Of a stretch of DNA of 64,000 nucleotides, positions 21,623 through 61,372 are shown piece after piece. Source of the DNA: Pseudomonadota bacterium (GTDB lineage: Bacteria; Pseudomonadota; Alphaproteobacteria; Sphingomonadales; Sphingomonadaceae); contig JBCBSU010000001.1 of the NCBI GenBank assembly GCA_039818985.1, forward strand, positions 646,367 to 710,366, written 5' to 3'. How positions within the stretch are numbered: the stretch's first letter is position 1; the number at the start of each line of letters is the position of its first letter. The notes beneath the pieces are model-generated. The model was not told the DNA's origin. It did not search any database and saw only the letters and a program-made list of their open reading frames with translations. A program made the position numbers and the translations under genes.

Positions 21623-22264
21623 TCAGGACGCGATTCTGAGATCGGGCTGGCTCAACCCCGGTTTGTCCTGGCCGCCATGCAGACCGTCAAATACCGTATC
21701 CAGCACAATGTGCAGATTGGCGTCGGTCGATGTATTCCACATGTTCATCATGATGTCCGGATTGCAGAATGGCTGGAGCATCAGGTTGATCAGCGACACC
21801 ACATGGTCAATTTCCATGTCCCGGAAATAACCTTCGGCCATGGCTTCGGCAACGATCACCGAAAGATAGTGATCAGCAAGGTCGATATAGCCGCGAATGA
21901 CTTCGAAATGCTGGTGCCCGATTTCCATATAGCTCTCGAACAGCTTGGGATCGGCCTCGAAGCGGCTGCGCTTCAACCCGAGGCGGCGGGAGAAGAAGGC
22001 GAACATCTTTTCCTTGGCCGACATGTCGGAGGCGATGACCTCTTCCATGATGGTGTTGAGTTCTTCAAACCAGCGCCCGGCCATGGCCTCGTAAAAGGCC
22101 TCTTTCGATTCGAAATAGCGATAGAGATTGGACTGCGACATGCCGCAGGCAGTGGCAATTTCGGAAATGTTGAAGTCGACAGCACCGCGCTGGCGGATCA
22201 GGTCTTCCGCAGCTTCCATGATTTCGTTGCGGATCTTGTCAGGATCAATTTGTGGACGTGGCAT
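21623..22264 (-). CDS. TetR/AcrR family transcriptional regulator
   Basis: This 213-aa repressor has a TetR DNA-binding domain at residues about 8-55, with helix-turn-helix ISEIATACGMSQSNLYRYFESKEAFYEAM. The C-terminal ligand domain has no diagnostic residues. A CDS of this size is normal for the family. The ATG at 22264 is followed closely by the HTH. The 195-bp upstream region contains inverted repeats (22386-22407) that could be its own operator. No obvious target gene adjoins it apart from itself; the ligand is unknown. Confidence 0.9.
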   Translation of the reverse strand: MPRPQIDPDKIRNEIMEAAEDLIRQRGAVDFNISEIATACGMSQSNLYRYFESKEAFYEAMAGRWFEELNTIMEEVIASDMSAKEKMFAFFSRRLGLKRSRFEADPKLFESYMEIGHQHFEVIRGYIDLADHYLSVIVAEAMAEGYFRDMEIDHVVSLINLMLQPFCNPDIMMNMWNTSTDANLHIVLDTVFDGLHGGQDKPGLSQPDLRIAS

Positions 22265-22385
22265 GTATTACTCCCTTGCGCAAACTCCCTGCGCGTACTG
22301 CCCCCGGCATGCATAGAAGGTGCGTGTCCGGCGGGTTTGTCCCGCACTCCACACATTGCCGTCCTAATGTCATACGACAGTTATA

Positions 22386-23313: not shown

Positions 23314-24351
23314 ATGACCGAAACACTGACGATTACCCGCCCTGATGACTGGCATGTGCATTTGCGCGATGGCGCGATGCTTCAGGCGGTGGCGCGCTAT
23401 ACCGCGCGGCAATTTGCCCGCGCCATCGTGATGCCCAATCTCACGCCGCCGGTGACCAGCAGCGCCATGGCTGCGGCTTATCGCGAGCGGATCATCGCGG
23501 CGCTCGATGAAGGGCAGGATTTTACGCCGCTGATGACCTGCTACCTGACTGATAATGCTGATGCCGACGACATGGCGTATGGCTTTGAAGCGGGCATTTA
23601 TACTGCGGCCAAGCTCTATCCCGCCGGGGCAACGACCAATTCGGATTCAGGGGTCACGGATATTGCCCATATCAAGGGTGCGCTGGCGCGGATGGCGGAT
23701 ATCGGCATGCCGTTGCTGGTGCATGGCGAAGTCACCGATGCAGATATCGACATATTTGACCGGGAAAAGGTGTTTATCGAGCGGATATTGCGTCCGCTGA
23801 TCGAGGAACTGCCGCACCTCAAAGTGGTGTTCGAGCATATCACCACCGAGGATGCGGTGGAATTTGTCAAAGCCGCAGGACCCAATGTCGCGGCGACGAT
23901 CACCGCACATCATCTGCATATCAACCGCAATGCCATGTTCGAAGGCGGCATAAGGCCGCATGCCTATTGTCTGCCTGTGGCCAAGCGCGAACAGCATCGC
24001 AAGGCACTGCGCCGTGCCGCCACTTCGGGCTCGCCGAAATTTTTCCTTGGCACAGACAGCGCGCCGCATGAAGTCGAGGCGAAGGAGTCGGCATGCGGCT
24101 GTGCCGGTATCTTCAGCGCGCCTTATGCGCTGGAAAGCTATCTGGCGGTGTTTGAAGAGGAAGGCGCTATCGACCGTTTTGAGGGCTTTGCTTCCTTTCA
24201 CGGCCCGGATTTTTACGGCCTTCCTAGGAACACAGACAGCATAACGCTGAACCGGAAAGCCGTCACGGTGATGGAAGGGTTGCCTGCTGCGGGGACGGTG
24301 GTGGTGCCGTTTCATGCCGGCGATACCATTGATTGGGAATTTGCCACCTAA
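23314..24351 (+). CDS. pyrC: dihydroorotase
   Basis: PyrC cyclises N-carbamoyl-aspartate to dihydroorotate in pyrimidine synthesis. At 345 aa this is the E. coli-like type II form. The zinc ligands His14 and His16 sit in WHVHLRDG. The carbamylated Lys is in the KLYPAGATTN segment near residue 98. Later ligands are in HGE, the HITT segment and the GTDSAPHE loop, which carries the catalytic Asp. The ATG at 23314 starts the conserved region; the longer frame overlaps the divergent ygfZ start. The 3' end overlaps the convergent rarD-like gene by 4 nt. Confidence 0.96.
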   Translation: MTETLTITRPDDWHVHLRDGAMLQAVARYTARQFARAIVMPNLTPPVTSSAMAAAYRERIIAALDEGQDFTPLMTCYLTDNADADDMAYGFEAGIYTAAKLYPAGATTNSDSGVTDIAHIKGALARMADIGMPLLVHGEVTDADIDIFDREKVFIERILRPLIEELPHLKVVFEHITTEDAVEFVKAAGPNVAATITAHHLHINRNAMFEGGIRPHAYCLPVAKREQHRKALRRAATSGSPKFFLGTDSAPHEVEAKESACGCAGIFSAPYALESYLAVFEEEGAIDRFEGFASFHGPDFYGLPRNTDSITLNRKAVTVMEGLPAAGTVVVPFHAGDTIDWEFAT

Positions 24352-25298
24352 CCGGTTCGTGCCCGATAGCTTTTGCGCGCCATGAGCAGCGCATTGCCCG
24401 AATAGAGAATCAGCGCGGTCCAGATCAGCCCGAAACAGATAAGGTGCGACATGGTCAGCGGCTCGCGATAGAGAAAGACGCCGAGCAGGAACTGGATGGT
24501 CGGGCCGATATATTGCACAAAGCCGAGAGTCGCCAGCGACAGCCTTTTTGCCGCTGAAGCGAAGAACAGCAAAGGTGTCGCGGTGATCGCACCGCCCAGC
24601 ACCAGATAGATGTCGGTGCGCAGGGAATAGCCCATGCCCGGACTGGAATCGTATAGAAATGCCCAGCCGGCAAACGTAGCGGCGATGGGGAGCAGCAGCG
24701 TCGTTTCTGCGGTCAGGCCAGGTACCGATTTCACCGGCGCGACCTTGCGCACCATGCCGTACAGGCCGAAGCTTGCCGCCAGCGCCAGGCTGATCCAGAT
24801 CGATTCCAGCGTTTCCACCGCCAGCACCGCCACCCCCAGTGCCGCCATGGCGACGGCGAGCCACTGTATCGGCTGCAACCGTTCTTTCAGGAAGAAATAG
24901 CCGAGCACGACATTGAGCAGCGGGTTGAGATAATAGCCTAGGCTCGCGGCCAGTATCTGGTCATGATAGATCGACCAGATATAGATCAGCCAGTTGGTCG
25001 CGATCAGCGTCGCGCTGATCAGCATCAGCCGCAATGTCTTCGGATCACGCATCACCCGGCCGAACTCTCCGAGCCGTTTGCGCAGCCACAATATCACCAG
25101 CAACAGCGGCACTGACCAGATGATCCGGTGCGCCACCACTTCGAGCGCGGAGATTTCCACCAGCTGTTTGAAGAACAGCGGCATGAAACCCCAGATGGTG
25201 TAAGCGGCGAGCGCATGGACCAGTCCGGTACGCGCCGAATTGTCTTCGGTCTCTACCGCTGTTTCTATGGGGGTGTCATCGCGCGCCATGAGCGCCAT
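24348..25298 (-). CDS. rarD: RarD-type EamA transporter
   Basis: This 316-aa protein has ten predicted transmembrane helices in two EamA repeats. It matches the RarD family (chloramphenicol-sensitive protein RarD, TIGR00688) through AAYTIWGFMPLFFKQL at the first helix, the ATNWLIYIWSI segment, SLGYYLNPLLNVVLGYFFLKERL, and the closing QYIGPTIQFLLGVFLY. RarD proteins are putative exporters of unknown substrate. The N-terminal 25 residues are acidic and hydrophilic. The start at 25298 has no visible ribosome binding site. The gene is convergent with pyrC, with 4 nt overlap. Confidence 0.9.
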   Translation of the reverse strand: MALMARDDTPIETAVETEDNSARTGLVHALAAYTIWGFMPLFFKQLVEISALEVVAHRIIWSVPLLLVILWLRKRLGEFGRVMRDPKTLRLMLISATLIATNWLIYIWSIYHDQILAASLGYYLNPLLNVVLGYFFLKERLQPIQWLAVAMAALGVAVLAVETLESIWISLALAASFGLYGMVRKVAPVKSVPGLTAETTLLLPIAATFAGWAFLYDSSPGMGYSLRTDIYLVLGGAITATPLLFFASAAKRLSLATLGFVQYIGPTIQFLLGVFLYREPLTMSHLICFGLIWTALILYSGNALLMARKSYRARTG

Positions 25299-25358: not shown

Positions 25359-25580
25359 TCAGAAAATTCCCGCCCCCAGCCACAGCCGGACAATACAGAT
25401 CGCGGTGACGATCAGGCAGAAATTGCGCCCGCCATTTTGCGATGACAGCGCCCCGATCAGCGTACCGAAAAGCGCGATCGGTACGATCATCCAGTTAAGT
25501 GCGCCCAGAAAGGGCAGGAACGCCGGAATGGCGAGAACGAGGGCAACAAGCCCGATGAGTATGGAGAGTAGATTGAGCAT
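25359..25580 (-). CDS. small two- to three-helix membrane protein, likely leaderless
   Basis: This 73-aa protein consists almost wholly of hydrophobic helices (LSILIGLVALVLAIPAFLPFLG, LNWMIVPIALFGTLIGALS, then NFCLIVTAICIVRLWLGAGIF). Function is unknown. No ribosome binding site is visible. A consensus-like -10 hexamer TATAAT ends 7 nt before the ATG, so the transcript probably begins at or near the start codon. The reading frame is short, but the membrane topology and promoter position support a real gene. Confidence 0.7.
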   Translation of the reverse strand: MLNLLSILIGLVALVLAIPAFLPFLGALNWMIVPIALFGTLIGALSSQNGGRNFCLIVTAICIVRLWLGAGIF

Positions 25581-25586
25581 TGCTGT

Positions 25587-25614
25587 ATTATATCAGTGTT
25601 ACACTGAGATGCAA
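25587..25614 (-). promoter_or_regulatory. sigma70-type promoter with operator-like palindrome in its spacer
   Basis: On the minus strand TTGCAT (25614-25609) and TATAAT (25592-25587) are spaced by 16 nt. A perfect 15-bp palindrome, TCAGTGT-T-ACACTGA (25593-25607), fills that spacer. A second dyad, CAAGT-GCA-ACTTG (25612-25624), overlaps the -35. The start point would fall at about 25580, the first base of the ATG. Confidence 0.6.
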
Positions 25615-25725
25615 GTGCAACTTGACGGAAAACTGACGCCATAGTTGCTGATTGTTCATAATAATACTGCTAAACATGAACATGTGGGGCGATTGAGAAC
25701 AGGGCTGATCGATGGAGTATGCAAT

Positions 25726-60006: not shown

Positions 60007-61287
60007 TCAGCGAATTTCGGTATTTTCCCGGTCAGGCATGAGCGGCTTGCGACTGCGATCACCCGATAGGCGGTATATGATGTAGATTGGCGCGCGCACG
60101 GTGAAGCCGCTATGGCCAAGCTTGTGTGTCTGTACCTGTCCGGTTTGGTTGGCCGGGGATTGTGTTGGTGCCCCGACAAGCCGGGCCACCGCATTGTCCT
60201 GTGCCGATGCCGCGAATACGATCGCCTGCGAATAGGTTTGCGGGCCAATAAGGATCGACACATCACCGGTAAAACGATCCGCCAGAGTTTCGGGCGGGGT
60301 CACCGTCTCACTGAAGGGCACCGAGACCACATCGCCAATGGTGCTGCCCGGTATCAGTGCCTGATTGGCGGCTGTTATGCGCGCGGTCACGGCCGAGGTC
60401 GAGGCAAAAGGCTTGTCGGTGAGATAAGCCATCAGCCTGTCCGACAGGTCATGCGCGCCGCCGCCATTTTTGCGCAGGTCGATGACCAGGCTGGCGGCAT
60501 TGCGCGTCGCTATCTCGGCAAAGGCCGATGGCAGAAAGCGGGCAAACGCCTCTTCCCGGTCGCGGGCGAAGCTGGGTATGTCGAGAATGGCGGTGTTGCC
60601 CTGCCAGCGCAGAGCGTAGTCTGCCGAACGGGCCGGAACAAAGCGAACCGCTTCAGTCAGCGCGATCTTGGTTTCCACGTCGCTGGCATCACGATAGGTC
60701 AGGGTGCGTAGCTCTTCTCCTGGCAGCAGCAAGTCGAGATAGGCGTTGAACCGCAGTTCCAATATGCGCAGGCGCAGGCTGTCGCTCTCGCCCCGGATAA
60801 GCGGCAGCAACCGGGTCATGACCGCATCGGTAGTCATCGGGCCGAGCCGGGTTAGGGTGGTGCCATCGGGAACCAGTCCCGCGCCGTTGACCACGGAGAC
60901 GCCTTTGTCCGAAAGGGTGATACCCAATGGCGTTGTTTCACCATCGGTATCGGGCGCATCGGGGGCCATCAGGCCTATATGGGCATCATTGAATAACCGG
61001 TTGAGCCTGGCGAGCTGGAGCCAGGCCTCGCGGCGGCTCATGCGTTCGGGCAGATCGGCCTTGATCGCTGCTGCCCCGGCATCGACCTGTTGCGCAGACG
61101 CCGAATAATCGAGGTCCGGATGAGTCGCGCGTGTCCATTGCAGCCATTCGTCAAGATCGGCGGCGACCTGTTCAGCGGTCAGTTCGGCTGCAGGCGCGGA
61201 TATTTGTGCCCGGGCTGCAAATGGTATCGCCGCGCATAGCAACCCCAGCAAAGCAGCGGCTATCAGGCGGGTAAAGGGAATGAACAC
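60007..61287 (-). CDS. secreted S41 (tail-specific) family peptidase
   Basis: This 426-aa exported protein has a signal peptide at residues 1-28 (cleavage after ARA). An S41 fold follows, with LVIDLRKNGGGAHDLSDRLM, and the nucleophile Ser occurs in GPQTYSQAIVFA. The usual PDZ domain is not clear, so this may be the PDZ-lacking subfamily. It would degrade periplasmic substrates. GTG 61287 has AAGGG 8 nt upstream; no ATG suits better. Stop is 4 nt from the MAPEG stop. Confidence 0.85.
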   Translation of the reverse strand: MFIPFTRLIAAALLGLLCAAIPFAARAQISAPAAELTAEQVAADLDEWLQWTRATHPDLDYSASAQQVDAGAAAIKADLPERMSRREAWLQLARLNRLFNDAHIGLMAPDAPDTDGETTPLGITLSDKGVSVVNGAGLVPDGTTLTRLGPMTTDAVMTRLLPLIRGESDSLRLRILELRFNAYLDLLLPGEELRTLTYRDASDVETKIALTEAVRFVPARSADYALRWQGNTAILDIPSFARDREEAFARFLPSAFAEIATRNAASLVIDLRKNGGGAHDLSDRLMAYLTDKPFASTSAVTARITAANQALIPGSTIGDVVSVPFSETVTPPETLADRFTGDVSILIGPQTYSQAIVFAASAQDNAVARLVGAPTQSPANQTGQVQTHKLGHSGFTVRAPIYIIYRLSGDRSRKPLMPDRENTEIR

Positions 61288-61372
61288 GGGTTAAGCCCTT
61301 CTACATGATCTACCGTATTATAACGGTAACACGCAAAAGATTATGAGGCAAGCAAGTGGTGTCAGATACCGG

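Follow-up and report, generated by a model that had tools for sequence, protein, structure and literature searches.

According to the accessible text of PMC6746942, YtrA sites in bacteria are typically 24 bp long, and ytrA genes generally head an ABC-transporter operon. Bacillus subtilis YtrA is a short GntR protein with a long dyad of distant half-sites, represses its own gene and is linked to envelope stress (PMC6746942). The site of a YtrA-like regulator in Xanthomonas citri reads GGTG-N16-CACC (Zhou et al. 2017, quoted in PMC6746942). In Sulfolobus acidocaldarius, YtrASa binds over the transcription start of membrane-protein genes and represses them; it has a 14-bp core motif, an archaeal promoter and two targets (PMC6746942). 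A 2015 survey, in which three alphaproteobacterial YtrA proteins were included, describes most YtrA regulons as one ABC-transporter operon in its accessible part (PMC4494728). An alphaproteobacterial envelope regulon is controlled by CenKR in Rhodobacter sphaeroides, through the direct repeat TGA-N8-TGA; the accessible text states that the authors did not find CenKR in Sphingomonadales (PMC9275681). A literature search with most subscription papers outside its scope found nothing on a sphingomonad YtrA regulon or on GntR proteins with leaderless promoters, and a lookup by the letters of the motif described below gave nothing relevant.

We analysed a 64,000-nt stretch of a Sphingomonadaceae genome (the window), in which a 24-bp dyad lies at the promoter of a gene for a 73-aa membrane protein. 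This is most likely a case of a known kind, a putative YtrA-subfamily operator, here on a leaderless promoter. As in B. subtilis, there is a short GntR protein and a long dyad with distant half-sites, and autorepression and a link to envelope stress are proposed; unlike in B. subtilis, the motif precedes many envelope genes, and no ABC gene is found near ytrA. The half-site spacing equals that of X. citri, which belongs to another class of bacteria and is alike in site spacing. Repression from a site over the transcription start is proposed as for YtrASa, and an alphaproteobacterial envelope regulon as for CenKR, although the CenR site is a direct repeat and its motif was dropped for the dyad. 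From promoter geometry, operator match, conservation and a shared motif we infer that the leaderless 73-aa gene is quite probably repressed by YtrA within an envelope regulon, the start, the binding, the repression and the signal all being part of this inference.

The 73-aa gene occupies positions 25359-25580 on the minus strand, with its ATG at 25580-25578. Neither Pfam nor NCBIfam assigns the protein to a family, and Pfam searches on 44 homologues returned just five weak families (E 0.02-0.1). Homologues are present in all three genomes of the genus and in 234 of 298 genomes of the family, Blastomonas, Sphingobium, Erythrobacter and Altererythrobacter being among the named relatives. The AlphaFold2 model contains three helices (mean pLDDT 84.5). 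A rarD-like EamA transporter gene (24348-25298, minus strand; NCBIfam TIGR00688 above cut-off) follows 60 bp downstream and is possibly co-transcribed; a rarD homologue is found near the 73-aa gene in 27 of 110 loci, each covering just 1-1.5 kb per side. In one genome (G051; L201:2086, plus strand), the homologue adjoins a dyad that also faces a divergent lipoprotein-like gene.

An earlier reading of this DNA (the sequence-only reading) had placed a promoter directly before the 73-aa ATG, and the elements are indeed present. On the minus strand, the -35 element TTGCAT (25609-25614) is followed by a 16-nt spacer, the -10 element TATAAT (25587-25592), 6 nt and the ATG, with transcription predicted to start at the A of the ATG (25580). 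A generic sigma-70 scan does not have this promoter among those it lists, because TTGCAT agrees with TTGACA at 3 of 6 positions only; the support for it is conservation. We compared 110 upstream regions, the best-scoring of 234 matches, which are not independent because several genomes per genus are included. A TTG at -34 to -36, counted from the ATG, is present in 106 of them, and the A at -11 is found in 95. Within these best 110 of 234, TTG starts at -35 in 89 and, as the sole TTG there, at -36 in 12; the start codon is ATG in 108, and Shine-Dalgarno-like 4-mers occur in 10, versus 9 of 110 in a control stretch. A typical relative reads CTTGCA, spacer, GGTGTnTTAcCcATATAAnACACATG.

No Shine-Dalgarno-like 4-mer precedes the ATG in the window, in agreement with the previous claim that the gene has no ribosome binding site. 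Going upstream from the ATG, the in-frame codons are GCA, ACA, AAT, TAT and TGA. The TGA (25595-25593) is located 15-13 nt upstream of the ATG, and none of the codons in between is a start codon; an earlier start is therefore impossible. Both this stop and the fixed -35/ATG distance in relatives back the leaderless start that had been predicted. We regard the promoter as real and the leaderless reading, in which promoter geometry would set the start at an ATG that has no ribosome binding site, as well supported. Because the -35/ATG distance is fixed and Shine-Dalgarno-like 4-mers are at control level, the layout is old and has probably been selected, with the start site itself a predicted one. 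With its leaderless promoter conserved across the family, the gene offers a place to study leaderless initiation under a natural, presumed repression.

The sequence-only reading had further described a 15-bp palindrome that exactly fills the spacer, a second dyad over the -35 and a design for repression by a TetR or MarR protein. The perfect palindrome TCAGTGTTACACTGA exists at 25593-25607, and covers 15 of the 16 spacer bases rather than all of them. Its perfect symmetry inside the spacer and a TetR gene 3.3 kb from the promoter (21623-22264) would fit an operator of a TetR- or MarR-type repressor. However, the window contains five perfect 7-1-7 palindromes, compared with 1-12 in 20 Markov controls; this is chance frequency, and the palindrome alone is therefore not unusual. 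The genome search that had been suggested returned a single exact copy, with none near a regulator gene; at up to three mismatches there are 84 places, versus 32 for the reversed pattern. Both genus-mates (G001 and G002) lack the palindrome and keep the 24-bp dyad instead. The palindrome is thus neither conserved with the promoter nor repeated before a regulator gene, and we rejected it as an operator; that a TetR- or MarR-type repressor acts through it is quite improbable, and the evidence favours a GntR protein of the YtrA subfamily. The second dyad, CAAGT-GCA-ACTTG, does overlap the -35 (25612-25624). It is absent from the upstreams of the same two genus-mates, and is probably due to chance. 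What holds of the proposed design is repression in principle, by way of the longer dyad; the two dyads on which it was built are absent from the genus-mates.

Upstream of the TetR gene, at a distance of about 95 bp, an imperfect dyad (22358-22381) could be the operator of TetR itself. Its score as a YtrA site does not exceed chance, with 40 of 200 random windows scoring as well.

The 24-bp dyad GCTGTATTATATCAGTGTTACACT (plus strand) extends over 25582-25605 and has 13 bp in common with the palindrome. Besides the -10 it takes in 13 of the 16 bases of the spacer and the greater part of the discriminator. A single base separates its end from the predicted start. With its distant GT/AC half-sites it has the form of a YtrA operator, which makes it a putative site of this type. 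CRP-type and PpsR-type motifs were dropped for the dyad since their spacing is different. To score the site we built a matrix on 27 operators of ytrA genes outside the genus, which remain of 31 ytrA loci when two with a weak site (L221, L223) and two of the own genus (L229, L230) are set aside. The window site reaches 27.2 bits and ranks first in the 64 kb; the next place has 11.2 bits, and the maximum in 20 Markov windows is 15.9. With a symmetrised matrix the site scores 24.1, while none of 200 controls exceeds 18.4.

Across the relatives, the symmetrised matrix gives at least 6 bits in 63 of the best 110 of 234 upstreams, versus 12 of 2200 shuffles, and 52 of these 63 sites begin at one position, -23. 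Another 20 upstreams from the next rows were scored (G104, with an internal stop, was skipped); a 24-mer that reaches 4 bits is present in 15, and in three of these it lies at -46, -54 and -41. In 40 of the 110 there is no site of at least 4 bits; 39 of these 40 genomes have YtrA, and some of these 40 upstreams, for example L084 and L115, still have a relaxed dyad. Since the right arm falls on the -10 and the start region, and the promoter geometry is retained in 37 of the 40 upstreams that have no scoring site, the conserved bases could be the core promoter of leaderless genes, with no regulator involved and the dyad a by-product of TATAAnACAC before the ATG. The same 40 upstreams, however, show that the promoter needs no dyad. 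The left arm is conserved as well, with T, G and T at -21 to -19 in 73, 81 and 69 of the 110, and the dyad also precedes genes whose start codon lies tens of bases further downstream. A promoter with no regulator is accordingly a very improbable explanation of the dyad. Covariation between the arms, examined in 70 upstreams picked by their right end, gave no clear signal: the best variable pair is found in 27 of 70 versus 20.1 expected, and 208 of 5000 shuffles are as good. In the window itself, the promoter-distal half TGTAACA deviates from TGTnTTA at two places.

The proposed regulator is encoded elsewhere in the genome. Its gene (G000:C1:986415-986738; L229:4663-5007, minus strand; PF00392) specifies 114 aa with the build of the YtrA subfamily, a GntR winged helix and a short C-terminal part; as criterion we used a C-terminal part of about 50 aa in a protein of about 120-130 aa. 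Residues 3-109 align to 6-112 of the 113-aa chain 3tqn_A (E 2.6e-27). A weaker structural-chain match (1.1e-9) is to 2du9/2ek5, reportedly the YtrA-like structure from C. glutamicum (Gao et al.). One ytrA in the genome carries such an operator in front of it: its ATG comes directly after GCTGTGTTATGCCAGTGATGCACT, which is identical to the window site at 19 of 24 bases. Both sites have zero mismatches to their joint pattern by construction; the next-best places in the genome have three. The ytrA promoter has a poor -10. The gene 57 bp upstream, on the same strand, encodes a nitroreductase, and no ABC transporter is found in 9 kb around ytrA (about 4 kb on each side). The usual, not obligatory, ABC-transporter operon is thus missing here; an ABC ATPase gene follows ytrA in G041, and the site in L189 precedes a YtrA-type GntR gene and then an ABC ATPase gene.

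A YtrA homologue (E up to 1e-10) is present in 266 of the 298 family genomes, the window genome included. The strict motif TGTnTTA-N6-TAAnACA occurs at 65 sites, spread over 33 of 59 genomes, and its reversed control at none; the relaxed core TGTnnTA-N6-TAnnACA, common to the genus-mates and many relatives, has 56 sites in 16 genomes versus 4 reversed. Among 55 nearly complete genomes, the strict dyad occurs in 30 of 49 with YtrA and in 0 of 6 without (Fisher 0.006). With incomplete genomes added, the numbers are 32 of 52 and 1 of 7 (0.037); in G116, an assembly of 360 contigs, a site is present and a YtrA match was not detected. G015 and G039, which lack YtrA, have no site before the 73-aa gene. 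A good dyad, that is, a 24-mer of at least 9 on a consensus score for which no shuffles were made, precedes ytrA in 29 of 31 loci, the exceptions being L221 and L223; the second-best place in the same 31 stretches scores 6.7-9.2.

The motif need not belong to YtrA, as another dimeric regulator could bind it and control ytrA too. For many target genes the motif is the sole link to YtrA, and relaxed sites before enolase genes are unlike the rest. Matrices built on the two kinds of site, ytrA operators and 73-aa promoters, also agree in part only. In the reverse test, a matrix built on 67 73-aa promoters outside the genus again places the window site at the top, but its 11.8-12.3 bits compare with a 95th percentile of 12.5 in 200 random windows, which makes this test weak. 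The same matrix gives the own ytrA operator just 5.5 bits; the two sets of sites are therefore similar, not identical. Against another regulator stand the autoregulatory position before ytrA in those 29 of 31 loci, the YtrA-like 24-bp spacing and the presence profile of the motif, which goes with YtrA. We therefore consider a regulator other than YtrA unlikely.

Under the preferred reading, repression by YtrA, a sigma-70-type leaderless promoter would drive the conserved three-helix 73-aa gene, with an mRNA that begins at the ATG. A YtrA dimer would bind 25582-25605 and block RNA polymerase; exclusion of the polymerase is proposed because the -10 would be occupied by the dimer, whose edge would lie one base away from the predicted start. 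YtrA would repress its own gene too, along with the envelope genes for TelA, the CPBP protease, PIMT and the TolC-type protein, the HlyD/RND-type adaptor, the beta-lactamase-fold hydrolase and the S41 peptidase. An envelope signal would be expected to release it.

These targets come from a pattern search. In the three genomes of the genus, RSTGTNTTANNNNNNTRNNNCASY (24 bp) gives 21 strand hits, versus 1 when reversed, and it lies at 9 distinct places in the window genome. The nearby genes are the 73-aa gene, ytrA and those for TelA, a beta-lactamase-fold hydrolase, DUF5694, an HlyD-type (HlyD/RND-type) adaptor, a CPBP/Rce1-like protease, an S41 peptidase, and PIMT followed by an outer membrane efflux (TolC-type) gene; the DUF5694 assignment is ambiguous because its site sits in a divergent pair. 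In other genomes, with Pfam run on one example each, the families are TelA, LemA, DUF2807, YbjQ, PBP1A, Rce1-like, PS decarboxylase, S41 and EI24. The genes next to the motif are largely an envelope set, and may form a stress regulon. An isolated palindrome becomes in this way a testable regulon with a single regulator, a single motif of 24 bp and a set of named targets, in the order in which the authors of PMC9275681 found no CenKR envelope system.

More tentatively, and with somewhat less than even confidence, we suggest that a Sphingomonadaceae YtrA lacking the usual ABC transporter could be the master repressor of a broad envelope-defence regulon and fill the place that other alphaproteobacteria give to CenKR, acting in part on leaderless promoters whose operator ends beside the start codon. 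Such a regulon would include TelA, LemA, PBP1A, CPBP proteases, DUF2807 lipoproteins, PIMT with the TolC-type gene, the HlyD-type adaptor, S41 and beta-lactamase-fold hydrolases.

A second YtrA-like site in the window, at 61312-61335, lies about 25 nt upstream of the S41 peptidase gene (60007-61287, minus strand). The matrix from the 73-aa promoters gives it 10.3 bits, but a score of 9.8 is reached in 21 of 200 random windows. In G001 there is only a relative with 28% identity, and G002 has none.

Several sites in other genomes have features of their own. The dyads before Rce1/CPBP-like genes (L132, L140 and L162 by Pfam, also L142 and L170, around position 2000) are embedded, by eye, in longer inverted repeats, whose arms measure about 13-17 bp around a 6-nt centre; this sets them apart from the other targets. 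A variant, TGTnnTA-N6-TACAACA, precedes the enolase gene in 7 of 16 genomes (L124, L130, L147, L152, L157, L158 and L163; Pfam for L152, the rest by eye); it is conserved, and unlike the remaining sites. L153 and L160, around position 2000, encode a 140-aa membrane protein with no Pfam family and, by eye, the same layout, with TTGACA about 35 nt before the ATG and a dyad that ends 2 nt before it. In G001 (L354, around position 1500), the gene of an EI24-type membrane protein starts one base after a 24-bp site and has TTGACG upstream, and is probably another leaderless target.
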